A stretch of DNA of 64,000 bases from Aminobacterium colombiense DSM 12261 (GCF_000025885.1 NC_014011.1:1736001-1800000), one strand, 5' to 3'. Shown: positions 9,046 to 22,094, counted from the stretch's first letter. A program made the numbers and translations. The notes: generated by a model not told the origin, from the letters alone.

Positions 9046-9936
9046 TTATTCGATGAATTTGGGGAGATACTGTTTTTCCAGGTCGCGGAACTGTTCGAAA
9101 CCTACAAGGTCTTTAAACTCTGAGAATGCCGCAACGAGGTCTGTTCTGCCCTCAGCGAGCTTGCCTCCCTGTATCTCATTGAGGTAATTGACCATGCCTT
9201 TCACAGCCGCAAAGAGAGGGCCAACAGGAATGCTTATTCTTCCCACGCCTAGTTCTTTAAGCTTTTCGATGGGAACGAGAGGTGTTTTCCCCCCAACAAC
9301 GGCATCCATGAGATTGATGCTCACTGGCGCTTTGATCTCTTTCACAGCCTGTTCTATCTGGTCTATTGACCGTGGAGCCTCTACGAAGATCAGGTCTGCT
9401 CCAGCCTCGGCATATGCGTTTCCTCGTTTTATAGCCTCTTCTATTCCGTGAACCGCAATGGCGTCGGTGCGGGCATTGATGACAAAATCAGGATCAATTT
9501 CATCCTTCACAGCCTTGCATGCCTTGATTTTCATGACCATTTCCTCTATAGGAATGATCTGCTTCCCCTCGAGATGGCCGCACCGTTTAGGGAACACCTG
9601 GTCTTCGATATTCATTCCAGCGGCGCCTGCCTTGATGAATTCCCTCGTGACATGCATGGCATTAATGCTATTTCCATATCCAGTATCAGCATCGGCCATG
9701 ACGGGAATTCCAACAGAGTCTATTATATTTTTTGTAAAGTGGACGACATCACTGAATCCGATGAAGGCCATATCCGGCAATCCCAAATAGGTAGCCGACA
9801 ACCCAAACCCGCTGACCTGAAGGGCTTCAAAACCCGCTCTTTCAATAAGCTTGGCAGAAATCGCATCGTGAGCTCCCGGGCACACTAGGGCCCGCCGTTC
9901 AAGGATCATATTTTTAAGCTTCGTTGTTTTTTTCAA
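9046..9936 (-). CDS. Isocitrate lyase/PEP mutase-superfamily lyase (methylisocitrate or 2,3-dimethylmalate lyase-like)
   Basis: A 296-residue TIM-barrel lyase. It has the metal-binding MADADTGYG and the catalytic-cysteine loop EDQVFPKRCGHLEGK (cysteine at about 119), which marks carbon-carbon lyases such as PrpB and dimethylmalate lyase rather than phosphonomutases. These enzymes split a 2-hydroxy di- or tricarboxylate into pyruvate plus a carboxylic acid. A TTG start at 9936 is preferred because GGAGGGG lies 6 bases upstream; an ATG at 9951 would place that site inside the gene. It overlaps the TRAP permease end and is the last gene of the operon, presumably the cleavage step. Confidence 0.8.
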   Translation of the reverse strand: MKKTTKLKNMILERRALVCPGAHDAISAKLIERAGFEALQVSGFGLSATYLGLPDMAFIGFSDVVHFTKNIIDSVGIPVMADADTGYGNSINAMHVTREFIKAGAAGMNIEDQVFPKRCGHLEGKQIIPIEEMVMKIKACKAVKDEIDPDFVINARTDAIAVHGIEEAIKRGNAYAEAGADLIFVEAPRSIDQIEQAVKEIKAPVSINLMDAVVGGKTPLVPIEKLKELGVGRISIPVGPLFAAVKGMVNYLNEIQGGKLAEGRTDLVAAFSEFKDLVGFEQFRDLEKQYLPKFIE

Positions 9937-11848
9937 CACGTACCCCTCCATTGAGACTAGAACGTTCTTGTTTTAAGATATATTTGTTCCATACAAAGGC
10001 TATAACCACGCCGACCATACCCGCAGCGGAAAGCTTAACATCAGGAAAAAGCAACAATATGCCACTCACAAAAAAGAGAACTCTGCTCAGTATAGCCATT
10101 ACACCTTTGCCGAAGCCAAAAAAACCGTACGCAATAGCAATAGCCCCGACAAAGCCTGTTAACCCATGGCTCAGAATAGCACCTGCAGAACCTCTCCCCA
10201 CCAGAGAGGGATTGAGAGCGAAGAAATAGGGCAGAATAAAGGCCACAGCCCCGAGCTTCACCGCATTCAGGCCAGTTTTAACCCAGTTCCCCTTCGAAAT
10301 GCTTGCCGCCGCCACTGCTGCCGTGCAGGTAGGAGGTGTAACCCCTCCAAGAATGGCCCAATAGATAAAGAAAAGATGGGCAGCAACCTGGTCAATTCCT
10401 ATTTTCATCAAAGGCGGCACAAGGATGGAAACAGAAAGAACGTACGTAGGGACAACAGGAAGAGAGGTTCCCAAAAGGAAGGGAACTATAGTGGCCACAA
10501 GAAGAGCGATAAAAATATTGGAACCGCCATATTTCAAGATCAGTCCGCTTATTTTAGGGGCGATCCCCGTGATCCCTATGAGGTTTACAAGCACACTCAC
10601 CGAGATAAGGATAGGGGCAATTCGCGCCACATCTGCCCCGGCTTCGCTTAAGGCGTCAAGAACCTTACGGGGAGTTTCTTTGATTTTTTTCTTCAGCAAA
10701 TCACTTAAAACCAACACGACAATGGAAGAAACACTGGCATAAAAACCCGCCTTCAGCAAAGGCTGCCCCGTTCCAATGAGATAAAGAAGAACAACAGTGG
10801 GAATAACAAGGCCCGCCATCCGTTCAAAGGTTAATATATCCTTCCATTTTGGAATTTCATCTTCTGGAACTGCAGAAAGCCCTCTTCGTTTTGTCTGAAA
10901 ATGGACGCCGCTAAACACACCTGTGTAAAACAATATACAAGGCAGCAAGGCATATCCGATGATGTTCATATAGGAAATATTTAAGAATTCCGCCATCATG
11001 AAAGCAGTGATACTCATGATGGGGGGCGTAATTCCGCCCCCGGTCGAGGCAATGGCTTCCACAGCTCCGGCAAATTCTGGTTTATACCCAAGACGTTTCA
11101 TGAGAGGTATGGTGTAGCTTCCCGTCACCATCACATTGGCTACAGAACTTCCAGAGATGCTGCCAAAAAGAGCGCTTGAAATAACAGCTGCTTTGGCAGG
11201 GCCTCCAACAAAACGGCCTGTCAGAGCCAGGGCCAGATCTATAAAGGTCTTGCCCCCGCCCGTAGCAGACAGAAGAGACCCAAATATGATGAACATGGCA
11301 ATAAAGGTTGCCGACATTCCTGTCACACTGCCAAACAATCCAAGGGGAGAATAATACACGGAATTCATAATAAAATTAAAAGATAAACCCCGAATTTTCC
11401 AGAGCCCCCCTAAATAGGGCGCCACATAGATATAGACAAAAAGCATTGCGACGAGTATGGGTATGGCCGCTCCAACGGTGCGACGAGCCGCCTCTAATAC
11501 AATGATCAGAAGAGCAGTTCCCAGAAGCAAATCCAGCGATGTGGCTCCTCCAGGCTTCATGTAAATATCAAGGGCCTTTACCACAACATTAAAACAGGCG
11601 AGAACAATGACAGCAATCAGAAAAACATCCCATATGAAAGAACGCTCATGTTCTTGACCTTCCCTTTGACGAAATGGGAAACAGAGCAAAGCTATAGATA
11701 CGCCCAGGGTCACATGAAGAGCTCGCACCTGAATGTCGAGCAAATTCTGAAAAAACATGGGTACAATCAGCTGGGTTAGAGAAAAGACGATACCGCTCCA
11801 GAATAAAAAGTGATTCATATGTTTATTTAAAAAATTTCGCACATTCAC
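9914..11848 (-). CDS. TRAP transporter fused permease (small plus large subunit)
   Basis: A 644-residue membrane protein in which the 4-helix DctQ-like part (about the first 150 residues) is fused to the 12-helix DctM-like part, as is usual for TAXI-type TRAP systems. Conserved large-subunit loops are present, such as GSISGSSVANVMVTGSYTIP and GGITPPIMSITAFMMAE. It exchanges sodium ions for an organic acid delivered by the TAXI binding protein encoded just upstream. The start is a GTG at 11848 with a GAGGGGGG sequence upstream. A stable stem-loop lies between it and the binding protein gene. Confidence 0.88.
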   Translation of the reverse strand: MNVRNFLNKHMNHFLFWSGIVFSLTQLIVPMFFQNLLDIQVRALHVTLGVSIALLCFPFRQREGQEHERSFIWDVFLIAVIVLACFNVVVKALDIYMKPGGATSLDLLLGTALLIIVLEAARRTVGAAIPILVAMLFVYIYVAPYLGGLWKIRGLSFNFIMNSVYYSPLGLFGSVTGMSATFIAMFIIFGSLLSATGGGKTFIDLALALTGRFVGGPAKAAVISSALFGSISGSSVANVMVTGSYTIPLMKRLGYKPEFAGAVEAIASTGGGITPPIMSITAFMMAEFLNISYMNIIGYALLPCILFYTGVFSGVHFQTKRRGLSAVPEDEIPKWKDILTFERMAGLVIPTVVLLYLIGTGQPLLKAGFYASVSSIVVLVLSDLLKKKIKETPRKVLDALSEAGADVARIAPILISVSVLVNLIGITGIAPKISGLILKYGGSNIFIALLVATIVPFLLGTSLPVVPTYVLSVSILVPPLMKIGIDQVAAHLFFIYWAILGGVTPPTCTAAVAAASISKGNWVKTGLNAVKLGAVAFILPYFFALNPSLVGRGSAGAILSHGLTGFVGAIAIAYGFFGFGKGVMAILSRVLFFVSGILLLFPDVKLSAAGMVGVVIAFVWNKYILKQERSSLNGGVRVEKNNEA

Positions 11849-11892
11849 CCTTTCTTCCCCCCTCTATTAACTCATGCGCTGCCGACGAGGGT

Positions 11893-11931
11893 GCGGGAAA
11901 CAGCGAGGCGTTTAAACCTTCTGTTTCCCGC
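11893..11931 (-). other. Intra-operon stem-loop between binding protein and permease
   Basis: An 11-bp perfect stem (GCGGGAAACAG, 11893-11903, with 11921-11931) and 17-base loop has no T run. Such structures after binding-protein genes often protect the upstream transcript from decay and so raise its level over the permease; that role is inferred. Confidence 0.5.
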
Positions 11932-11942
11932 TCTCATAAAGT

Positions 11943-12962
11943 CTATTTCTTGTATTCTGGTGGAAGGAAAAACTCTGGAACCTCTATGCCCTTTTCTTTG
12001 GCGTAACGAATAAGACCTGGGTGGGCAGGAACAAAGGCATCTTCTGTTGCGAATTTAAAGTAGTCTGCAACAGGATCCCATCCCTTGACGGCCCCGTAGG
12101 CCGCTGCAACTTCTTCAAACCCTTCCACATAGGCTTTAACGATGTTATAAGCCACTTCTTCTGACATTCTGGTGCTGGCTACCGCTCCAGCGATAGGGCA
12201 CTCTTCCCAAATTGGGCCCACATCTGGAAGCTGGGATATAGAGCCTTTTTGAGTTTCAAGGAAGCTCATGCTAGGTATCTTTTCCCGTATTTTCTCAATG
12301 TCATCCTTGGAATAGCCAATAACCGTAAGGGGCGTTGTAATATTCACTTCTATGAGGGACGCATCCATAGAAGTTAACCCGCTTGACTTCTGAAGACCAA
12401 CAATACGGCCTTCCTTAAGGGCATTGACGGCATCCCCATAGGCCATGGGCATAAGGTTGATATTGGCCCCTGTAATGTCGTTGTACTCCATAACGTAAGA
12501 AGCTGAAGCAGAGCCGGGAATGCCCGGGCAGAACCGTTTTCCAGCAAGATCTTTAAAGGTGGTAACTTTGGCATCTTCCCTAACATAGAGACGGTCGGCA
12601 AATACGTTTCTCAAAAATAGCCAGCGAACATCTTGGTAGGGTTTTTCCCCTTCAAAAGCCCCTGTTCCCTCATAGAGCTGAAGGGTAGACGGCAAGTCGA
12701 TGCACATAGCAAAGTCAAAAACACCATCGCGAACTTTCTTCAGGTTATCAATACCGGCTCCACTTTCAACAACAGTCACATTAAGCCCAACATTCGCTTT
12801 GTTGACCACGTTGGCGGCGGCTACGCACCATGCATAGACACCGGAAGAAGAGGACGTACTGCCCATATTCAAACTCGTTTGGCCATAGCCTGCTCCTGCA
12901 ACGACGAAAGAGAAGAGCACTAGCAGACACCCAAGAAGCAACATCTTTCTACTTTTCTGCAT
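11943..12962 (-). CDS. TAXI-family TRAP solute-binding protein
   Basis: A 339-residue periplasmic binding protein with a signal peptide (about 1-28, ending GAGYGQ). It has the TAXI-family opening NMGSTSSSSGVYAW and the KRFCPGIPGSASASYVMEY region typical of these receptors. It captures an organic acid for the fused permease downstream. The ATG at 12962 is chosen over the frame start at 13034 because AAGGGGG lies just upstream and the signal peptide then begins correctly. It stands between the aconitase-type enzyme and the permease, which ties uptake to the pathway. Confidence 0.85.
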   Translation of the reverse strand: MQKSRKMLLLGCLLVLFSFVVAGAGYGQTSLNMGSTSSSSGVYAWCVAAANVVNKANVGLNVTVVESGAGIDNLKKVRDGVFDFAMCIDLPSTLQLYEGTGAFEGEKPYQDVRWLFLRNVFADRLYVREDAKVTTFKDLAGKRFCPGIPGSASASYVMEYNDITGANINLMPMAYGDAVNALKEGRIVGLQKSSGLTSMDASLIEVNITTPLTVIGYSKDDIEKIREKIPSMSFLETQKGSISQLPDVGPIWEECPIAGAVASTRMSEEVAYNIVKAYVEGFEEVAAAYGAVKGWDPVADYFKFATEDAFVPAHPGLIRYAKEKGIEVPEFFLPPEYKK

Positions 12963-13001
12963 TGTGTTTCCCCCTTTTTTCCCTTTTAAAAAACATCTCT
13001 G

Positions 13002-13021
13002 TTCCGTGGAAAACCACGGAA
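13002..13021 (-). terminator. Hairpin between small dehydratase subunit and TAXI gene
   Basis: TTCCGTGG-AAAA-CCACGGAA is a perfect 8-bp stem. On the minus strand it is followed after 8 bases by TTTTTT, so it may be a partial terminator that lowers or separates expression of the transporter part of the operon. Confidence 0.45.
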
Positions 13022-13139
13022 AAGCCTCAAGCACCCAAGCTTTTTCAGCCTTCCTGCACTGTGCTTCGTCTTTTGCCTTCCTTATAAGCGTCCCTCCTTC
13101 TTCTTCATGGTAGCATAATCATCAATAGCGGCCGTGCCA

Positions 13140-13643
13140 TCAGCGACGGCCCGATATGTCAAAAGACTTATGCTGTTTTAAGTAAGGGGTTAACCCCCCC
13201 GCGGAAAGAATTCGGATCATTACATCAGGAAGCGGTTCCATAGGTATTATCTGGTTTGTAGTGAGATTGAAGATTCTTTGAGTAGAGAGATCAATGCGCA
13301 ATTGATCGAGGTCATGGATATCGTCGGTATTACATACTATAACAGGAACCCCAAGATTTATGGCGTTTCTAAAGAATATGCGTGCAAAGGATTTCGCTAA
13401 AACAGCCCCTACTCCGGCATATTTCAATGCTACAGGCGCCTGCTCTCTTGAGGAACCGCACCCGAAATTTCGACCGGCCACAACAAAATCCCCAGGCTGT
13501 ATCTTCTTGCTGAACCCGGGTGAAATGTCTTCGAAAAGGTGTTCCACCCAAACGGTATGATCAAGGGTTTTGGTGTATTTACCGGCGATGATGTAGTCGG
13601 TATTTATATTGTCGCCAAAGATATGGGCCCGTCCCTGAATCAT
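13140..13643 (-). CDS. Aconitase-type hydro-lyase, small (swivel) subunit
   Basis: A 167-residue swivelling-domain protein with the signature GRNFGCGSSREQAP and AKSFARIFFRNAINLGVPV, as in LeuD, homoaconitase small subunits and dimethylmaleate hydratase small subunits. It completes the active site of the iron-sulfur large subunit encoded immediately upstream, with which it overlaps by 4 bp. No leucine-pathway genes are adjacent, so a catabolic hydration or isomerisation is more likely than leucine synthesis. The substrate is not determinable from sequence. Confidence 0.82.
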   Translation of the reverse strand: MIQGRAHIFGDNINTDYIIAGKYTKTLDHTVWVEHLFEDISPGFSKKIQPGDFVVAGRNFGCGSSREQAPVALKYAGVGAVLAKSFARIFFRNAINLGVPVIVCNTDDIHDLDQLRIDLSTQRIFNLTTNQIIPMEPLPDVMIRILSAGGLTPYLKQHKSFDISGRR

Positions 13644-14917
13644 CGTACATCCCCCATTTCAAGAAACTCTCGGGGATCAGTAATGCATCCCTTTAAGGCC
13701 GAAGCAGCACAGGTTACAGGTGAAGCCAGATAGACAGAGGCTTTATTGTTCCCCATCCGCCCCTTGAAGTTCCTATTGGCCGTAGAAAGCACCGTTTCGC
13801 CATCTCCAGGCACTCCTAAATGGGTTCCGGGACAGGGACCGCAGCCTGGAGGGATAAGAGTAGCTCCCGATTTAAGGAATGTTTCCACAAGACCTTCTTT
13901 AACCGCCTCGAGAAAGATTTGCCGCGATGCCGGCCCTATGATCAGGCGACAGTTGGGGTTCACCCTTCCCTTTCGCAAAATAGCCGCAGCTGCCCGTAAA
14001 TCTTCAAGTCTTCCATTGGTGCATGTTCCGATAAATACCTGCTGAACCGCTCTCCCCGCCACATCCTCCACTGGATGAACGTTGTCAACGGCGTGGGGAC
14101 AGGCGACTTGCGGCCCAATGGCATTAACGTCTATTTCCATCACATTGTGGTAAACAGCGTCTGCATCGTCAAAAACAGGGGTGTAGCTTTTATGGGTTCT
14201 GCCAGTCAGATAGGCGGACGTTTTTTCGTCACACTCCATAATTCCGGCTTTCGCCCCGCACTCAATGGCCATATTGCACATGGTCATACGATCACAGATC
14301 TCCATATCGGCAATAGTTTTTCCTGTAAAGCTGATGGCCAGGTAATCGGCCCCATCAAATCCCAGTCTGCCAATGGTGTAGAGCATTACGTCTTTCGCGG
14401 TCACTCCTTTGCCCATGGCTCCACTGTAAACTATCTTCAGCGTCTCCGGCACCTTCAGCCAAAGCTGTCCTGTGAGCATCACTCCGCTCATGTCAGTGGA
14501 ACCAATTCCGAAAGAGAGAGCGTTCATGGCTCCATAGGTACAGGTGTGTGAATCGCATCCCAGCACGATCTCTGAGGGAACCACGAGTCCCTTTTCCACA
14601 AGAAGCTGGTGGCAAACCCCTTCCCCAACCTCGAAAAGACGCACATTCTGTTCCTTGGCGAAGTCCCGCATGAGGGAGTGAAGGCGGCTCGCCTGCTCAT
14701 TAGGGCAGGGAACGGCGTGATCAAGCACAAACACCAGACGGGAAGCATCCCAAATGTGAGGTTCCCCATATTCGCGGAAAGCCTGAATCGCCAGGGAAGC
14801 CGTGCTGTCGTGGGCCATGGCAAGATCTACATTGACCACAGCAATATCTCCGGCCCGCACATCCTGACCACAGTGAGATGATATTATTTTTTCAACAATG
14901 GTCTTCCCCCGCCCCAT
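13640..14917 (-). CDS. Aconitase-type hydro-lyase, large (4Fe-4S) subunit
   Basis: A 425-residue LeuC/homoaconitase/dimethylmaleate-hydratase family protein. The three cluster cysteines are visible at C299 (IGTCTNGR), C359 and C362 (CGPCPG), and the DSHTCTYGA motif is at about 122-130. The enzyme would hydrate or isomerise an unsaturated or 2-/3-hydroxy acid. Placement in an operon with a PrpB/dimethylmalate-lyase-like enzyme, PrpD-like proteins and a TRAP importer suggests it prepares the 2-hydroxy acid that the lyase cleaves. It follows the third PrpD paralogue by 2 bases. Confidence 0.85.
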   Translation of the reverse strand: MGRGKTIVEKIISSHCGQDVRAGDIAVVNVDLAMAHDSTASLAIQAFREYGEPHIWDASRLVFVLDHAVPCPNEQASRLHSLMRDFAKEQNVRLFEVGEGVCHQLLVEKGLVVPSEIVLGCDSHTCTYGAMNALSFGIGSTDMSGVMLTGQLWLKVPETLKIVYSGAMGKGVTAKDVMLYTIGRLGFDGADYLAISFTGKTIADMEICDRMTMCNMAIECGAKAGIMECDEKTSAYLTGRTHKSYTPVFDDADAVYHNVMEIDVNAIGPQVACPHAVDNVHPVEDVAGRAVQQVFIGTCTNGRLEDLRAAAAILRKGRVNPNCRLIIGPASRQIFLEAVKEGLVETFLKSGATLIPPGCGPCPGTHLGVPGDGETVLSTANRNFKGRMGNNKASVYLASPVTCAASALKGCITDPREFLEMGDVR

Positions 14918-14919
14918 AC

Positions 14920-16305
14920 TTACGCCTCTTTTCTAAGAAGATTTGTCAGAACTTTCACGTTATCAAGATCTTCAAGATGCATCACAGCGTCAACAATCTT
15001 CTTCCGCCGGTCTGCGCAATCAAAGACCTTCCCCGCCAGAGAATCGAATTTCCAAAGAAGCTCTTCTTCTGTAAAGGGATTCAGCGGGTGTCCCTTGGGA
15101 TATTCTGTTCTCAGATTGAAGACACGGCCGTCGTTGAGTTCGATCTGGACCTTCACTGTATAACGAAGGTTTCTTGGCAGATTCTCAATTTCTTCGTCGG
15201 GATATACCTCGACTTTTTTGGCGTACTCGAGAATCCTCTGATCGCGGATCTTTTCTTCGTTAAACTGATCCACAAAGGCGTTTCCTTCAAGCATGGTCAC
15301 GGCGCATACGTAGGGGTGGCTCAGCTGGGCCGCTACAACACTGGTAATGGCGTCAGCGTTCACCGAATATTTATGTGTAATGGAAGTGGTTCCAACCCTG
15401 ATCTTTTTCACGTCGTCGGGATTGATCTCAGGGTGCTCCTGTTTGAATCTCCGCAGCGTATCGATGGTGGAATGTTTGCTTCGGCAAGTGGAGTAGAACT
15501 TCAAGCCTATGCCAAGGAGTTCCCACCGTTCTCCCAGTTCTCCAGCTGTGCGCTCTACGTTATAGATATCGTCTGTAAAGCAGTTGTAGAACCCGCCGAA
15601 TTTATTCTCAAAAACATCCTCGATGCCGGTAAAGCCTTCTTTAGCCAGCAGACATCCAATAATGGCCCCTTCAGAAGACTTGGAGGGAACTATTCGCTTG
15701 GCCATGGAAGCGAACTGTACAGCCTGCAATCCGCTCGACCAGTTTCCGGTAATGCCCATGGCGTGGATCATCTGATCTTTGCTCAGCCCCAGCATCTTCC
15801 CCACCCCTGCGGCAGAACCGAAGGGGCAGCACGTACCCGTATTGTTAAAACCCTGATGGGCCAGCTCCATACCGATGGGAGCCGCTACCCGGCAGGCCAC
15901 TTCAAAGGCCAGAACCGCGGCGGTGAGAAAATCTTTTCCCGAAACAGTGCCAAGGGTTTCGGCAAAGGCTGTAATGCAGCCAAGAACACCTGTGGAGACG
16001 TGGATGATACCGTCGGTGTGGGTATCGTCAAGCTCAAAGGAATTGATGGCAGAACCGTTGAGCATCATGGCCGATGTAACCGATGTCTTAACATTCGTAC
16101 CCCAAACAGAGGCTTCCTGCCTGTCAGACATTTTCAAAAGTACGTCTTTATAGATCTTCATCCATGGAGTGGTGGAACCAAAGAGACCGCATCCATAGGA
16201 ATCCAGCAGAATGTTCTTCAAATGGGTTGTGACCTCAACGGGGATATCTTCATATTTGAGCTGTGCGATAAATCGAGAAAGACCTTCATTAATTCTGTCT
16301 GCCAT
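14920..16305 (-). CDS. MmgE/PrpD family protein, paralogue 3
   Basis: A 461-residue member of the MmgE/PrpD family, which includes 2-methylcitrate dehydratase, cis-aconitate decarboxylase and iminodisuccinate epimerase. It has the SFELDDTHTDGIIHV active-site region, but the HP motif that follows ELDD in the other two paralogues of this operon (residues TYHPGA and TCHPAV) is replaced by IHVSTG, so its chemistry may differ. The start is supported by AAGGAGGAG 7 bases upstream. It sits between paralogue 2 and the aconitase-type pair. Confidence 0.82.
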   Translation of the reverse strand: MADRINEGLSRFIAQLKYEDIPVEVTTHLKNILLDSYGCGLFGSTTPWMKIYKDVLLKMSDRQEASVWGTNVKTSVTSAMMLNGSAINSFELDDTHTDGIIHVSTGVLGCITAFAETLGTVSGKDFLTAAVLAFEVACRVAAPIGMELAHQGFNNTGTCCPFGSAAGVGKMLGLSKDQMIHAMGITGNWSSGLQAVQFASMAKRIVPSKSSEGAIIGCLLAKEGFTGIEDVFENKFGGFYNCFTDDIYNVERTAGELGERWELLGIGLKFYSTCRSKHSTIDTLRRFKQEHPEINPDDVKKIRVGTTSITHKYSVNADAITSVVAAQLSHPYVCAVTMLEGNAFVDQFNEEKIRDQRILEYAKKVEVYPDEEIENLPRNLRYTVKVQIELNDGRVFNLRTEYPKGHPLNPFTEEELLWKFDSLAGKVFDCADRRKKIVDAVMHLEDLDNVKVLTNLLRKEA

Positions 16306-16369
16306 CTTGCTTCTCCTCCTTATAATTCACCTGATCTTATTTCAGATGCTGCACGTGATCGTACTGCCA

Positions 16370-17740
16370 TTACCATAGAAGCATGTCGGTCAGTTCTTGA
16401 ATCGGATTCGTTAAAGTGCCTTCATCCATTATCCAGTCCATAACTTTTTTCTGACGCCCAGCCGTCAGAACAGTCTGGGTCACATCCCTGAACTTATCCA
16501 TCAGATCTTCATCAGACATGGGGTTAAGGGGATCTCCCTTGGCATAATCCACCCTTGACGCAAAAATCTGCCCGTCGGTATCGGTTATTTCTACAATGGT
16601 GGTTCGTATTTCAGGATAGGTCTTCTGAATCTCGGGATCTGCCTCTATTTCTATAAGAGAAGCTATCTTTTTAACCCTCTCGTCTTTAATACTCTCTTCC
16701 GTGTATTCCTGGAGACCGGCTCTTCCCCGCACGATCATGGAACCCATGCCGTACTGAAGGCTCAGTCTGGCGTGAAGCACTGTCTGGTAGTCGGGAATAT
16801 CTGAACCCTGTTTGGCATTTTTGTGGGTCAGCACCCGAATGGATTGAATGTCATCCATCGTCATGGGGTGCCCCCTTAAAATATTTTCCACAGCCTCAAC
16901 AGCGTAATGAACATACCGGCATGAACAGTAAGGTTTGAAGTATATTTTCTGGAATTCCCACTTCTCGCCAAGGTCTTTTTCAAGAATGGAAGGATTGAAG
17001 GTATCTGAAAAACAGTGGGCGAAGCCCAGACGGCCTTCAAGAATTTCTTCTGGCCCCGTAAAGCCATTTTGAGCGAGAAGGGCGGCAAACATGCCGTTTC
17101 GCGCCGCATTGCCCGGGTGAAGGTGTTTCACAAAAGAGCCGTCGATTTCGTACTGGTTAATACCTGAGGCCAGACTGCCAACAATGCCAATGGCCGAAAC
17201 AAGCTCGTCCGCATTCAGCCCCAGCAGGCTGGCACTCACCACTGTGGTGCCAAAGGTTCCCACCGTTCCCGTGGGGTGAAAGCCCTTAAGATAGTGGGAG
17301 GGGTTAACCGAGGTGCCAATTCGAAGAGAAACTTCATACCCCAACGCAATGGCAAGAAGTACATCCTCCACAGTGGCTCCCCGCTCTTCCGCAAGAGCCA
17401 ATGCAGCTGGAATCATAGAAGCCCCGGGATGGTAGGTCGCATACTTTGACCCGTCATCGAGCTCCAGGGCATGGGCCGCTACTCCATTGGCAAGAGCGGC
17501 ATGAGCGCTATCAGTCTTAAGGAGTGTTCCGATCACCGATGCCTTGCCGGCAGGGGCGCATTTTTTGACAAAACCCTGAATGGCCTGAGCCGAATCTGCC
17601 ATGGCTGAGCCAGCAATGATCACACCCACAGTATCGAGAAGACACCGTCGTGCCTGATGAACAATAGCTTCAGGCAGGCTTGAAAAGGATGTATCAGCGG
17701 CAAATTCCGCCAGCTTCCTCGAAAAGGTTTTGTCACTCAT
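16370..17740 (-). CDS. MmgE/PrpD family protein, paralogue 2
   Basis: A 456-residue MmgE/PrpD protein with HALELDDGSKYATYHPGASMI and the PAALALAEE stretch after it, the family's active-site region, plus the FHPTGTVGTFG motif. The start at 17740 is chosen because GGAGG lies 8 bases upstream and because it overlaps the DUF4387 stop by 8 bp; a frame start at 17773 lacks a binding site. It likely dehydrates, epimerises or decarboxylates a carboxylate; which of these cannot be told. Confidence 0.83.
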   Translation of the reverse strand: MSDKTFSRKLAEFAADTSFSSLPEAIVHQARRCLLDTVGVIIAGSAMADSAQAIQGFVKKCAPAGKASVIGTLLKTDSAHAALANGVAAHALELDDGSKYATYHPGASMIPAALALAEERGATVEDVLLAIALGYEVSLRIGTSVNPSHYLKGFHPTGTVGTFGTTVVSASLLGLNADELVSAIGIVGSLASGINQYEIDGSFVKHLHPGNAARNGMFAALLAQNGFTGPEEILEGRLGFAHCFSDTFNPSILEKDLGEKWEFQKIYFKPYCSCRYVHYAVEAVENILRGHPMTMDDIQSIRVLTHKNAKQGSDIPDYQTVLHARLSLQYGMGSMIVRGRAGLQEYTEESIKDERVKKIASLIEIEADPEIQKTYPEIRTTIVEITDTDGQIFASRVDYAKGDPLNPMSDEDLMDKFRDVTQTVLTAGRQKKVMDWIMDEGTLTNPIQELTDMLLW

Positions 17741-18059
17741 CCCAGGGAACCTCCAGAGAGAAGAGTGGGGCATACTGCTGGCACCCGTACACGTCTGTTT
17801 CTGAAGGGCCTCCGCTGGCTATCGACCGCCGAATATTGGCCTTAATACCCATCCCGGGATCGAAGAACATAAAATCAAGCACTTTTTCTGTTGGCACATC
17901 GTAGGCCCGGGCAATGGCTTCTTGAGTAACGACACCGCTTTGTTTCACTTTTTCATAGATTGAACGGTCACTGAAGATAATCTCGAGGGTAATCATAAAG
18001 CTCCCCGCATTCTTGCTGCGAACCGTTCTGGCTAAATCACATATATTTTTTGTTTTCAT
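17733..18059 (-). CDS. DUF4387 domain protein
   Basis: A 108-residue protein beginning KNICDLARTVRSKNAGSF, with DVPTEKVLDFMFFDPGMGIK and a C-terminal DVYGCQQYAPL, characteristic of DUF4387. As I recall, this family is commonly encoded beside AtuA/DUF1446-type proteins, and one is present two genes upstream, so the two may form a complex. It overlaps the upstream PrpD paralogue by 4 bp (ATGA) and the downstream one by 8 bp. No catalytic motif can be named. Confidence 0.78.
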   Translation of the reverse strand: MKTKNICDLARTVRSKNAGSFMITLEIIFSDRSIYEKVKQSGVVTQEAIARAYDVPTEKVLDFMFFDPGMGIKANIRRSIASGGPSETDVYGCQQYAPLFSLEVPWDE

Positions 18060-19456
18060 GAGTGGAACCTCCCGAAATGGTCAACTATTTCCCCATAGGC
18101 GACTGAGTCTATGGGTCTTTCCACACACAGATCCCACAAGCCCGCTAAAAATTCTGCCGGGTAATACACATTCACCATGCCCTGAAGTTTCTCTAAAAGA
18201 TCCTGATCGTTCACTGGATTTTCAGGCTCTCCCTTGGCTACGGGAATATGCTTTTCAAAAGAACGTCCGTCCTTGAGCTCAATTCTCATCCAGGCTCCCC
18301 GCTCCTCTGGATAGATGCGGTTCATGGCTTCATCTTCTTCGAGGTTCATTTTCAGGGCGGTTTGGCGAAGTTTCTCGTTCTTCAGAGTTTTTTCGTCATA
18401 ATCCCGCAGAGTCACATGGCCCCGCTCAAGGGCAATAGACACGGAGAATGGAAGACTAAACATGGCTTCTTCAAAGGTAGCGGGGGTAAAGATCCGTCCC
18501 ACTTCCGCAATCCCCAGGGCATAGGTCTTTACGTGGATGGATTCAATATCGTCAAGGGTGAGGCCAAGAGCCTGTTTCCCCTCTTTGGCCAGGTCGATGG
18601 CAGCGTGGCAGTGGCGGCAGGTAGGATAAAGCTTGGTATAGGTGTACATAATCTCCCACCGATCTCCCAGCTCTCCCATGAGGGCTTCTTCAGAAAATTC
18701 GTTGCGGCACATGGCCTTTAACCAACCGTGCTCTCCCTCGAAAAGAGACCTGGGCCCTTTCGCTCCCCGATCAACGAGGTCTGCTGCCAATACTCCCGCC
18801 ATGGCGGCCTTGCCCGGCTGAAGTGGCTTGATTCCCGGATGGTCGTGAAGCATCTCCTGAAGTCCGGCGCTTTGCAGCCCTCCAAGTGCAACAGCGTAGG
18901 CAAAAGATTCAGGGCCGAAATTCTTAAGGCTGGCGCAGGCAGCGGCAGCGCCAAGGGATCCGCATGTACCTGTAGAATGAAATCCCCACTTCAGATGGGA
19001 AGGGTTAATGGCTCTCGCCGCCCGAAGCATTACATCGTACCCCACCACAATGGCCCGAAGAAGGCTGGTAAAGTCAGATCCTTCCCGTTCTGCCATCACA
19101 AGGGCAGCCGGAATAATAGCCACTGCAGGGTGGCATGTTCCCCACCGATGGCCGTCATCAAGCTCTATGGAATGCCCCAGAGCTCCCAGGGCCAACGCTC
19201 CATTAATAGCAGGAACCTTGCTTCCATGACAAAGGATGGTGGATTCCGGAGCCCCGCCAAGGGAAATGAGGTACTCTGCGCAGAGGGCAGGAAACTCTCC
19301 TGTTTTGTGTCCGGCCGCTACTTCCGAAAGAAAATCCACTAGAACGCGGCGAGCTTTATCAAGAACTGCTTCCGGTATGGGGGAAGCCCCCCTATCGCCA
19401 TAGAATCGGCTTAATTTTGAAAGATAGGTGGCATTTACATCAAGTGTTTGAGTCAT
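18056..19456 (-). CDS. MmgE/PrpD family protein, paralogue 1
   Basis: A 466-residue MmgE/PrpD protein with HSIELDDGHRWGTCHPAVAI followed by IPAALVMAE, and the WGFHSTGTCGSLGAAAACAS motif. It starts 2 bases after the AtuA-like stop, with the GGTAGGGGG binding site inside the upstream gene, so the genes are translationally linked. It carries both conserved pieces of the active-site region (ELDD and CHP). It is related to but clearly distinct from paralogues 2 and 3. Confidence 0.83.
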   Translation of the reverse strand: MTQTLDVNATYLSKLSRFYGDRGASPIPEAVLDKARRVLVDFLSEVAAGHKTGEFPALCAEYLISLGGAPESTILCHGSKVPAINGALALGALGHSIELDDGHRWGTCHPAVAIIPAALVMAEREGSDFTSLLRAIVVGYDVMLRAARAINPSHLKWGFHSTGTCGSLGAAAACASLKNFGPESFAYAVALGGLQSAGLQEMLHDHPGIKPLQPGKAAMAGVLAADLVDRGAKGPRSLFEGEHGWLKAMCRNEFSEEALMGELGDRWEIMYTYTKLYPTCRHCHAAIDLAKEGKQALGLTLDDIESIHVKTYALGIAEVGRIFTPATFEEAMFSLPFSVSIALERGHVTLRDYDEKTLKNEKLRQTALKMNLEEDEAMNRIYPEERGAWMRIELKDGRSFEKHIPVAKGEPENPVNDQDLLEKLQGMVNVYYPAEFLAGLWDLCVERPIDSVAYGEIVDHFGRFHS

Positions 19457-19458
19457 TA

Positions 19459-20844
19459 CTAACCCCCTACCGTCTCAAAATGATATTTAAAGATTTTGCT
19501 GTCCAGTGGATCTTTGAGGGTCAGCAGATGATCGATGGTCCACCGATAACACTTGTTCTGAGGATAAAGGGGTTCGTCGGTAAGAAGGGCCACAGAGCCG
19601 CCCGATGAGTTCATCTGGCCAGGGTAGCTCATATAGAAGAAACGGAACTTGGCGCACTTTGCCACAGTGGTGGCAAGATCCAGATCTTGAGAAACCACTT
19701 CTATAAAAACTCCCAGCTCATGGGCCTGGGTTTTTATAACGGGCTCATACTCTCTCATAACGGCGTTTCGGCCATATACGTGGAAATAGAGATCATAGTC
19801 TTTGTCCCGGGAAGGCCCAATAATGTGAGACACTTTCTTTCTCGTGTCTTCAAGAATCATGTCGATATTATCGATGGCCCTGGGGTCGCGGATTCCAACA
19901 AAGTGATAGACACGGTGCCCCGCTTCGCCGGCCCCTTCCAGTTTCACCTTATAGCTTCCGTCGGGAGAAGAAACAAACTTGCTTCCCGATACTTTGGCGA
20001 TACGGTCGGTAACAGACTCATAAACGCTCTCATGCATATCGAGAATTCCGCCGGGCAACCCCTGAACGAAGGGATTCGTTCGCTCGTACATAGAGTGGGC
20101 CGCAAGGCTGTGTGGCGTTGCCTGCTGTTTCGGATGCATGGGCTCGATTGTAAAATGGTCTGGATGGACAGTGGCAATAATCGACTCTTTCACCATCTGG
20201 GGCCAACAGACAAGGGAGGCGCATTCCGCCGCTTTCCCCATATGAAGGCTGATCCCTCTGTCAAAACCCTTAAAGATGGGATAGGCTGCCAAAACGGCAT
20301 CGTCACAGGCCCGGCCGGCCATAATCACATCCGCTCCCTGCTCAAGGGCATAAACAAACTGCTCAATACCCATACTGGCAGTTACATTCGTCGTCTGATC
20401 AATTACTTCTTTCGTAAGGGGAAAATCTGCTTCAAGAGGTTCAGTGTCTCCGTTTTCTACACGTTTTAACAGTTCATTTTTGTCCACTTGAGAATAGATA
20501 AGGGCCATTTTGAAGGGGGCGAGGCGATGTTCTTTTGCTATATCGCGAATAAGGTCGGCGTACAAATCCACAGTTCTGTCTGTTCCAGTGGTACTGCATG
20601 ATCCAACAATCATGGGAACATTCTTTTTTCTTGACTCCACAAGCATTACTTCAAGGTCGTGTCTTTCCCATTCAATTGGGTTGTGGGGCTTGTTGGCTCC
20701 TAAAAAGGTGGGGCCGGCATCGGCTGTTCCCGCATCGGCTGCGAAACAGTCGATATGATGCTTCACACCTTCGTAAAAGGATTCTTCTTCGATAATGTTA
20801 TCGCCCAAGTTGCCGGTAGACACGAGAAGCGAACATTTTTCCAC
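19459..20844 (-). CDS. AtuA-like (DUF1446) protein, first gene of the operon
   Basis: A 461-residue protein of the acyclic-terpene-utilisation AtuA/DUF1446 type. It contains FAADAGTADAGPTFLG, GSCSTTGTDRTVDLYAD and ADVIMAGRACDDAVLAAYP, the glycine-rich and ligand-binding segments of the family. Its reaction is not established; it may act with the DUF4387 protein. The start is a GTG at 20844 with GGAGGG 6 bases upstream. It is the promoter-proximal gene of an operon of about 11.8 kb, and a palindrome matching NrpR operators (20865-20880) covers the region just upstream of its ribosome binding site. Confidence 0.78.
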   Translation of the reverse strand: MEKCSLLVSTGNLGDNIIEEESFYEGVKHHIDCFAADAGTADAGPTFLGANKPHNPIEWERHDLEVMLVESRKKNVPMIVGSCSTTGTDRTVDLYADLIRDIAKEHRLAPFKMALIYSQVDKNELLKRVENGDTEPLEADFPLTKEVIDQTTNVTASMGIEQFVYALEQGADVIMAGRACDDAVLAAYPIFKGFDRGISLHMGKAAECASLVCWPQMVKESIIATVHPDHFTIEPMHPKQQATPHSLAAHSMYERTNPFVQGLPGGILDMHESVYESVTDRIAKVSGSKFVSSPDGSYKVKLEGAGEAGHRVYHFVGIRDPRAIDNIDMILEDTRKKVSHIIGPSRDKDYDLYFHVYGRNAVMREYEPVIKTQAHELGVFIEVVSQDLDLATTVAKCAKFRFFYMSYPGQMNSSGGSVALLTDEPLYPQNKCYRWTIDHLLTLKDPLDSKIFKYHFETVGG

Positions 20845-20864: not shown

Positions 20865-20880
20865 CGGAAATTGACTTCCG
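20865..20880. promoter_or_regulatory. Putative NrpR operator 1
   Basis: CGGAAATTGACTTCCG is a perfect palindrome of the form GGAA-N6-TTCC, the published operator pattern of NrpR repressors. It lies about 20 bp upstream of the AtuA-like start, so binding would block transcription initiation or early elongation. It is the outer member of a symmetrical pair with the site at 21015-21030. Confidence 0.65.
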
Positions 20881-21014: not shown

Positions 21015-21030
21015 CGGATAGCAACTTCCG
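21015..21030. promoter_or_regulatory. Putative NrpR operator 2
   Basis: CGGATAGCAACTTCCG matches the operator pattern with one mismatch in the left half (GGAT for GGAA). It lies about 20 bp upstream of the regulator ATG at 21051. Its flank, TTCCGAAAATAGAG (21026-21039), is the exact reverse complement of CTCTATTTTCGGAA (20856-20869) at operator 1. The two centres are 150 bp apart. Confidence 0.6.
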
Positions 21031-21050: not shown

Positions 21051-22094
21051 ATGCAAAATTTTACGTATAATAGTAGCAAAACCAGCAAAGGAGTTTCACT
21101 CATGTTTGCCAATGAAAAATATGCGGCCACAGTTATAGAGATTCTACGCATCCTCTACTTCTCTGACGGCATTCAGTCATCAAGCCATATACGCAGCCAG
21201 CTCGGAGAGCGAGGATTCGACCTCGACTCCAGAACGGTACGGTATCATCTTTCAAACATGGAATCTGAGAACCTTGTGAAGAGAAAGGGAAACAGAGGGG
21301 CTTACCTTACCGAAAAAGGAATCAGCGAAGCAAAAATGCTCTTCGTTTTCGACCGCGTTGGCACTCCATCCTTCGAAACTGAAAAACTTTCTTCTTTTTA
21401 CTCTTTCAATGGGGAAAAAAAGAAGGGCTTCATCGTCGCCAACTGCCTCCTTCTAGAAAAGAACAAGCTATCAATCGCCTTGCAAGAACTTAAAAAGGCT
21501 GCTTTTACAAACGTATGGGTATCGTCTCTCCTCGGCATTTCAAAAGAACCGGAAAAGCTGTGGAAGTGCGACCTTCCTGACAAGTATGTAGGTCTTGTCT
21601 GCGTATCATCCAGGAATTACGATGTGGCTCTTCAGAAGAAAGGAATCTATGTAGAAACCTCGGCAACAGGTCTTTACAGCCTCAAAAACTTCACTCCCCG
21701 GGGATTTACAGAGATCATATCTCATACAGGAACAACCCTCAGCCCTGGAGAAATCCTCATTCGAGGGCGATACACATCTGTCTGCCGTCTGGCAGAAACC
21801 GGGGAGGGGCTTGTTACCGCTGCCATCAAGACCTTTCCATCATTCTTATACAAAGAACTTCAAGAAGCCCTGGCGCACCTTGATCCATCTATCTTTTCAG
21901 GTCTCATTTTCCATGGCGGGCTCATTCCCCCCTCATATCGCATCAGCTCAAAAGACCGCAACAAAGGCTACATGGTCATATACGGCGGCGCCAACCTCTT
22001 CTCTCCCCTTATTGAAAAAGGAATCGCCACCAACCTTTCCATCGCCAGCAGCCTTTACGACGTAGAACAAATGACCGACATCAACAACCTGTAG
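21051..22094 (+). CDS. NrpR-type (DUF128) transcriptional regulator
   Basis: A 347-residue protein with an N-terminal winged helix (about 24-95; SRTVRYHLSNMESENLVKR) and one C-terminal NrpR/DUF128 sensory domain (GFIVANCLLLEK to the end). Archaeal NrpR represses nitrogen-assimilation genes and responds to 2-oxoglutarate, with two sensory domains; here there is one. It is divergent from the catabolic operon, and palindromes matching NrpR operators lie before both genes, so it probably controls both. The ATG at 21051 has GAGGG 7 bases upstream; an internal ATG at 21102 also has GGAG and is a reasonable alternative. Confidence 0.8.
   Translation: MQNFTYNSSKTSKGVSLMFANEKYAATVIEILRILYFSDGIQSSSHIRSQLGERGFDLDSRTVRYHLSNMESENLVKRKGNRGAYLTEKGISEAKMLFVFDRVGTPSFETEKLSSFYSFNGEKKKGFIVANCLLLEKNKLSIALQELKKAAFTNVWVSSLLGISKEPEKLWKCDLPDKYVGLVCVSSRNYDVALQKKGIYVETSATGLYSLKNFTPRGFTEIISHTGTTLSPGEILIRGRYTSVCRLAETGEGLVTAAIKTFPSFLYKELQEALAHLDPSIFSGLIFHGGLIPPSYRISSKDRNKGYMVIYGGANLFSPLIEKGIATNLSIASSLYDVEQMTDINNL

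Follow-up and report, generated by a model that had tools for sequence, protein, structure and literature searches.

The window analysed here, 64,000 nucleotides of the Aminobacterium colombiense DSM 12261 genome, contains ten co-directed genes on its minus strand between positions 9046 and 20844 that, by our reading of the open reading frames (ORFs), overlap or are separated by gaps of approximately 105 bp or less (Table 1). At the AtuA end, a 2-bp gap separates AtuA from PrpDa, PrpDa and DUF4387 overlap by 4 bp, and DUF4387 and PrpDb overlap by 41 bp; in the middle, PrpDb and PrpDc lie 64 bp apart, PrpDc and LeuC lie 2 bp apart, and LeuC and LeuD overlap by 4 bp; at the far end, gaps of 105 and 94 bp separate LeuD from TAXI and TAXI from the permease, which overlaps PrpB by 38 bp. 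Start codons were set mechanically, and some of these overlaps may be smaller. Pfam assigned the ten ORFs to PEP mutase/ICL type, DctM, NMT1_3 (TAXI), Aconitase_C, Aconitase, MmgE/PrpD (three ORFs), DUF4387, and AtuA, and the arrangement and families given in an earlier sequence-only reading of this DNA agree with the ORFs and with the Pfam and NCBIfam assignments. The TAXI binding protein and the fused TRAP permease both score above curated NCBIfam cutoffs and thus qualify as a TAXI-TRAP transporter. Among the ten operon genes, Pfam and NCBIfam identified neither a dehydrogenase nor a CoA enzyme. We infer that the ten genes form one transcript; a scan for consensus promoters and terminators performed no better than on shuffled sequences. 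Elsewhere in the window, positions 27810-50000 are AT-rich (down to 34% GC) and carry polysaccharide/O-antigen genes (Polysacc_synt_2, a sugar transferase, glycosyltransferases, a Wzy-like polymerase, and a flippase).

Table 1. Genes and candidate operators of the locus, in window coordinates.
Feature	Position	Strand	Basis or remark
AtuA-family lyase large subunit (CmlA-like)	19459..20844	-	Pfam AtuA; phmmer 9erq_A; AF2 model vs 9evf_A
PrpDa, MmgE/PrpD enzyme, one-base signature	18056..19456	-	gene between both lyase subunit genes
DUF4387, lyase small subunit (CmlB-like)	17733..18059	-	Pfam DUF4387; phmmer 9erq_B
PrpDb, MmgE/PrpD enzyme, two-base (His+Tyr) epimerase/isomerase signature	16370..17773	-	catalytic map PMC12290011
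PrpDc, MmgE/PrpD enzyme, HP to HV	14920..16305	-	residue alignment
LeuC/DmdA-like [4Fe-4S] hydro-lyase large subunit	13640..14917	-	Pfam; cluster Cys
LeuD/DmdB-like small subunit	13140..13643	-	TIGR02087 LeuD/DmdB; loop alignment
TAXI solute-binding protein	11943..13034	-	TIGR02122 above cutoff; PDB TAXI relatives
TRAP fused permease	9914..11848	-	TIGR02123 above cutoff
PrpB-superfamily lyase, predicted dimethylmalate/alkylmalate type	9046..9951	-	best PDB relative 1zlp; pocket residues
Candidate operator CGGAAATTGACTTCCG, 16-bp palindrome	20865-20880	.	~20 bp upstream of AtuA start codon
Candidate operator CGGATAGCAACTTCCG, 16-bp palindrome	21015-21030	.	upstream of regulator gene
NrpR-type regulator (HTH_12 + NRD1_2), divergent from operon	21051..22094	+	Pfam

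Conservation and regulation of the gene set

DUF4387 is present in 25 of 188 Synergistota genomes, and we read approximately 20 kb around each match; the gene content of GC-rich MAGs was read by tblastn since longest-ORF calling masks genes there. The order AtuA-PrpDa-DUF4387-PrpDb-PrpDc-LeuC-LeuD-TAXI-TRAP-PrpB, together with the regulator, is complete in most Synergistota loci long enough to show it. Carriers of the full set are Aminobacterium, other Synergistaceae MAGs, and Thermovirga, with approximately 50-94% identity among the enzymes and transporter, and the NrpR-type regulator is linked with the operon in nearly all Synergistota loci that extend far enough. Since the set, and nearly always its order, is conserved through the phylum, the set is far from chance. 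The gene-neighborhood search that the sequence-only reading had called for bears out the gene set in most Synergistota loci, and an identical neighborhood already assigned to a known pathway, which by its own account would have overturned that reading, occurred in no case among the neighborhoods and literature searched.

Acetomicrobium divides the gene set exactly at the PrpDc/LeuC junction into two divergent arms, AtuA-PrpDa-DUF4387-PrpDb-PrpDc and LeuC-LeuD-TAXI-TRAP-PrpB, and its regulator lies beyond PrpB. One genome (G025) carries the operon without LeuCD and PrpB, and in another (G004) PrpB lies approximately 17 kb away on the same contig. Outside of Synergistota, our contig scan recovered two MAGs: one labelled Armatimonadetes, which has most of the set, and one of Ca. 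Atribacteria, which has a minimal version consisting only of TRAP-TAXI-AtuA-PrpDa-DUF4387. A search of the latter MAG, whose completeness is not given, found no second PrpD and no homologue of LeuC or PrpB. The Acetomicrobium split, G025, and the Atribacteria version therefore suggest two modules, of which module 1 (the AtuA arm) would act nearest the imported substrate, an order that draws in part on this one MAG without a completeness figure.

The NrpR-type regulator contains both a winged helix HTH_12 domain and an NRD1_2 domain, as determined by Pfam. The NrpR operator consensus is GGAA-N6-TTCC, and two candidate operators, CGGAAATTGACTTCCG and CGGATAGCAACTTCCG, flank the divergent promoter region. 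We counted 17 GGA-N8-TCC sites across 12 orthologous regions compared to 0.70 in dinucleotide shuffles (maximum of 6 in 500), a count to be read with the pattern having been chosen after viewing the window, some Acetomicrobium regions being near-identical, and two regions containing no site. Among spacings of 3 to 13, only a spacing of 8 was enriched. The operator is not rare across the genome (12 strand hits compared to 15 with a reversed-pattern control), and its support thus comes from recurrence at orthologous promoters and not from genome-wide rarity. In Acetomicrobium, the sites lie between LeuC and AtuA and not beside the regulator. NrpR-type regulators also occur near AtuA in an Archaeoglobus MAG (L082:10095-11102) and at another Synergistota locus (L057:7230-8240), and the link between regulator and lyase may therefore be old.

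The AtuA-DUF4387 pair

The sequence-only reading placed AtuA-like and DUF4387 proteins in an uncharacterised operon; we found that both are homologous to lyase subunits of solved structure. By phmmer against PDB sequences, AtuA matches 9erq and 9evf only (9erq_A, E=2.9e-81), and the same entries are the best matches of DUF4387 (9erq_B, E=3.2e-22, approximately 41% identity). The depositors of these structures, released in 2025, named the chains 'Citramalate lyase, subunit A (cmlA)' and 'subunit B (cmlB)', and 9evf is titled 'Citramalate lyase - ADP - pyruvate complex'. An AlphaFold (AF2) model of the window AtuA (pLDDT 88) aligns to 9evf_A with a query-normalised TM score of 0.89 (E=3.6e-52). 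Our data indicate that AtuA and DUF4387 are members of a known CoA-free lyase family, AtuA by sequence and predicted fold and DUF4387 by sequence. It follows from this homology that the operon probably encodes two C-C lyases and not one. Our literature search found no paper on DUF4387 and none on the 9erq/9evf enzyme, and the family's apparent identity as citramalate lyase is taken from PDB entry titles and operon context.

That context comes from other phyla. Bacteroidota encode the pair downstream of glutamate mutase, with methylaspartate ammonia-lyase on one side and class I fumarase subunits on the other, and an E. coli plasmid carries AtuA-DUF4387 in the same methylaspartate-type context; our tree places 9erq with the E. 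coli copy. A DUF1446 gene without known function was reported in the methylaspartate context, where the fate of citramalate was unclear and its cleavage had no assigned enzyme (PMC4682846). The methylaspartate operons thus agree independently with the citramalate-lyase naming of the pair. Within the Bacteroidota operons (L119-L139; e.g., L119:11904-12848), a conserved 314-aa protein with no match in Pfam or NCBIfam is encoded between DUF4387 and the mesaconase (fumarase) subunits. Other AtuA-DUF4387 loci repeatedly place the pair beside hydratases (class I fumarase, LeuCD, and PrpD). On two betaproteobacterial plasmids, parts of the operon occur in other combinations: AtuA-DUF4387 adjoins a PrpD in Diaphorobacter (L165:13447-16576), and adjoins RraA, near LeuCD and a PrpB-like gene, in Variovorax (L166:1-11356).

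The window AtuA-DUF4387 clade is distinct from the citramalate-lyase clade in the tree. The window AtuA retains all 51 near-invariant family residues at 34% identity to the CmlAB type, while 79 alignment positions are fixed differently between the two clades. These fixed changes include CDD for YDP and CWPQ for an ATPG-type stretch beside the invariant R178/D181 and E207/C208. Since the clade is separate and the fixed differences are many, the substrate is probably not citramalate. These data suggest that the window pair performs the same chemistry as citramalate lyase on another substrate.

The MmgE/PrpD enzymes, LeuCD, and the PrpB-like lyase

The MmgE/PrpD family occurs in about a fifth of prokaryote species, and every characterised member acts on a 1,4-dicarboxylate unit via an enolate (PMC12290011). 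PrpDa, PrpDb, and PrpDc form three monophyletic orthogroups across the phylum; all contain the MmgE_PrpD N and C domains and keep the catalytic His and two Lys, which places them in the family. We mapped the catalytic positions from the residue list in PMC12290011. PrpDa reads His, Glu, His, Leu, His, Lys, Lys, with no Tyr base, and it is the sole PrpD of the minimal Atribacteria version. In PrpDb the set is complete, the second base Tyr included, which is also the case in IDS epimerase, the best solved relative of PrpDb. PrpDc reads Asn, Glu, His, no Tyr, Asn, Lys, Lys; two substrate-binding His are replaced by Asn, one of which is common with E. coli PrpD. Each signature is invariant within its orthogroup in all aligned orthologues. 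The absence of the HP motif from the third paralogue had been noticed previously; HV stands in its place in all aligned orthologues, yet the catalytic His is retained. The separate orthogroups and distinct signatures also favor the earlier view that the three PrpDs probably perform different steps, and one or more could be non-catalytic partners. A tblastn search of plasmids with PrpDb and PrpDc returned hundreds of remote matches in uninformative contexts. A fourth MmgE/PrpD gene (genome C1 at approximately 129.1-134.9 kb; L151:5065-10857) follows genes reading as class I fumarase/tartrate-dehydratase subunits, class II fumarase, and malic enzyme.

LeuC contains the cluster cysteines C299, C359, and C362, and LeuD scores above the cutoff of the LeuD/DmdB subfamily model TIGR02087 and has an invariant 'GKYTKT' specificity loop in Synergistota orthologues. 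We rejected leucine biosynthesis as the role of the window LeuCD since a LeuA-LeuC-LeuD-LeuB-like operon at genome 89 kb has its own LeuCD (LeuA and LeuB were identified by sequence reading). The best PDB relative of the PrpB-like protein is petal death protein 1zlp, ahead of methylisocitrate lyases, and the protein keeps KRCGH and the metal-site residues D58, D85, and D87. Compared to E. coli PrpB, it carries G47F and R241F in all aligned Synergistota orthologues, T212M/F, and a 3-residue insertion; we take G47, R241, and T212 to be the positions that hold the third carboxylate of methylisocitrate. With the tricarboxylate residues of methylisocitrate lyase lost, the substrate is predicted to be of the alkylmalate type. 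The first half of the earlier designation as a PrpB/dimethylmalate-lyase-like enzyme is corrected here, as the pocket is not methylisocitrate-lyase-like. A second PrpB-like gene, 65% identical to that of the window, lies at genome C1 approximately 469.0-477.4 kb (L184:10037-18378) with an RraA-like aldolase, a DUF1932 dehydrogenase, TAXI, a TRAP permease, a CitE-like HpcH protein, and CitF. In G025/G026, two PrpB genes occur together with LeuCD, TctABC, and a fumarate-reductase-like flavoprotein in a paralogous cluster. Given these paralogous clusters, the operon PrpB may act on something unrelated.

Proposed pathway, alternatives, and known systems

The operon is real and conserved, and at its center stands a subtype of a CoA-free lyase family of which a structure was solved recently. 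We hypothesize, with a probability of roughly 0.6, that it is a CoA-free, redox-neutral catabolic operon whose two lyase modules break down a branched or substituted di-/tricarboxylic acid after its import. The TAXI-TRAP system, an importer by family, would take up this acid. In module 1 (AtuA, PrpDa, DUF4387, PrpDb, and PrpDc), the MmgE/PrpD enzymes would abstract the alpha-proton of a 1,4-dicarboxylate unit; by their signatures, PrpDb might be an epimerase/isomerase, and PrpDa and PrpDc might be enzymes of the dehydratase/hydratase type, together yielding a 2-hydroxy acid. AtuA-DUF4387, as a CmlAB-type retro-aldol lyase, may then cleave this 2-hydroxy acid to acetate or another short acid and a 2-oxo acid. 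The ADP in the solved relative suggests nucleotide-assisted chemistry, and we speculate that a nucleotide takes the place of CoA in activation, perhaps by way of an acyl-phosphate. In module 2 (LeuCD and the PrpB-like lyase), the hydro-lyase would move or add the hydroxyl group on the remaining alkylmaleate/alkylmalate, and the PrpB-like enzyme would cut the alkylmalate to pyruvate or another 2-oxo acid and a short acid. The NrpR-type repressor, at the computed GGAA-N6-TTCC-like sites, presumably controls the whole set. This scheme elaborates the import, isomerisation/dehydration, and cleavage proposed in the sequence-only reading, with which the PrpD signatures, PrpB pocket, and conserved set are in keeping.

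Citrate, fumarate, malate, and succinate are not used by A. colombiense in pure culture (PMC3035294), which makes an imported acid other than these four the probable substrate. Citrate, one of the candidates offered before, is unlikely for this reason. Possible substrates are branched C5-C7 acids (dimethylmaleate/dimethylmalate or methylsuccinate type) and aconitate-like acids. More tentatively, and somewhat against the odds, the operon could encode an undescribed CoA-free pathway for degradation of a polycarboxylate, in which one short acid is split off by a nucleotide-dependent CmlAB-type lyase of new specificity, working obligately with a dedicated PrpD partner whose gene lies between its subunit genes, and another by a second lyase of the alkylmalate type.

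The alternatives each explain part of the operon. A dimethylmaleate/2,3-dimethylmalate route, in which LeuCD is DmdAB, the PrpB-like enzyme is Dml yielding propionate and pyruvate, and the PrpDs and AtuA feed in a related C6-C7 acid, draws on the LeuD/DmdB model match and on the alkylmalate-lyase type of the PrpB-like pocket and best PDB relative, and is compatible with the downstream half of our scheme; however, it leaves AtuA-DUF4387 and three PrpDs unexplained in a genome without a PrpF/methylitaconate-isomerase family member, and we consider it rather unlikely. The function of the 9erq/9evf relatives, and a Thermotoga-labelled MAG (L140) in which AtuA-DUF4387 adjoins LeuCD with a similar loop, speak for an ordinary citramalate/C5-dicarboxylate (itaconate, citraconate, or mesaconate) route, with LeuCD or PrpD making citramalate for cleavage to acetate and pyruvate. 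The 79 differently fixed positions argue against it, and three PrpDs and a second lyase would not be needed, which makes this route distinctly unlikely.

Two further readings have lower probability still. In a methylcitrate-type route, imported 2-methylcitrate or methylaconitate would be dehydrated by PrpD, rehydrated by LeuCD, and cleaved by PrpB to pyruvate and succinate. All of the enzyme superfamilies are present, and PrpDc has an Asn in common with E. coli PrpD at one substrate-binding position; against this, the genome has no citrate synthase family, the prpB and prpD models fall far under cutoff, the MICL residues G47 and R241 are Phe, and AtuA-DUF4387 and two PrpDs would have no job, so that the route is highly improbable. 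We judge similarly poor the chances of a citrate/aconitate pathway with AtuA-DUF4387 as a CoA-free citrate lyase, despite another Acetomicrobium AtuA-DUF4387 clade whose neighbors are TctABC, aconitase, and an isocitrate-dehydrogenase-like gene, and despite the description of the genus Anaerobaculum (now Acetomicrobium) from a citrate fermenter (PMC3739175). The growth data count against it, as do the many fixed differences in the window clade; furthermore, Acetomicrobium has a window-type operon besides the Tct-linked one, and the two types therefore differ. The second Acetomicrobium pair (L031-L034; L031:7731-16543), which lies with GntR, TctC, TctB, TctA, and aconitase-like and isocitrate-dehydrogenase-like genes (the last ones read from sequence), itself resembles a citrate pathway in which AtuA-DUF4387 might serve as a CoA-free citrate lyase.

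Our analysis connects AtuA/DUF1446 and DUF4387, two 'unknown function' families that occur in many phyla, with CoA-free C-C bond cleavage. The conserved operon and its candidate regulator provide a setting for finding a new substrate, the presence in a single operon of three MmgE/PrpD orthogroups with probably different functions is useful for annotation of that family, and which organic acids the Synergistota of digesters and oil reservoirs live on becomes testable.

The earlier view that known pathways do not explain this set is upheld by the genome. The citrate synthase family (PF00285) has no match in the 99.9% complete genome, while 13 of 14 control genomes do match; the PrpF/methylitaconate isomerase family is likewise absent from it, and glutamate mutase (MutE) has no match in the genome. 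These absences exclude the methylcitrate cycle (no citrate synthase/2-methylcitrate synthase, PrpC), the E. barkeri-type nicotinate route in its known form, and the methylaspartate pathway, respectively. The operon shares the PrpB and PrpD superfamilies with the methylcitrate cycle (PrpB, PrpC, and PrpD) but lacks citrate synthase and the PrpB tricarboxylate residues, and it remains below equivalog cutoffs (prpB, 249.9 bits compared to 354.4; PrpDs, at most 36.3 bits compared to 458, TIGR02330). The dimethylmalate branch of nicotinate fermentation uses DmdAB and Dml. The operon resembles this branch in having a LeuCD-type hydro-lyase and a predicted alkylmalate-type PrpB-superfamily lyase, a likeness judged by subfamily model match and PrpB-like pocket; the operon adds AtuA-DUF4387, three PrpDs, and TAXI-TRAP. 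PrpDb shares the full two-base set with methylsuccinate isomerase/IDS epimerase, but identity is only remote and the operon has no CoA transferase or acyl-CoA dehydrogenase. The regulator shares HTH_12 and NRD1_2 with methanogen NrpR, which acts in a 2-oxoglutarate-dependent manner (PMC9765008), and candidate GGAA-N6-TTCC-like sites recur at the orthologous promoters; in contrast, the window regulator is bacterial and tied to an organic-acid operon, and its effector may not be 2-oxoglutarate. Finally, like the enterobacterial-type CmlAB (9erq, 9evf), the window pair has two subunits, an AtuA-type large subunit of the same predicted fold with the 51 near-invariant residues and a co-encoded DUF4387; it differs in lying outside of the CmlAB clade and the methylaspartate operon, in a genome without glutamate mutase, and in the PrpDa gene that always stands between its subunit genes.
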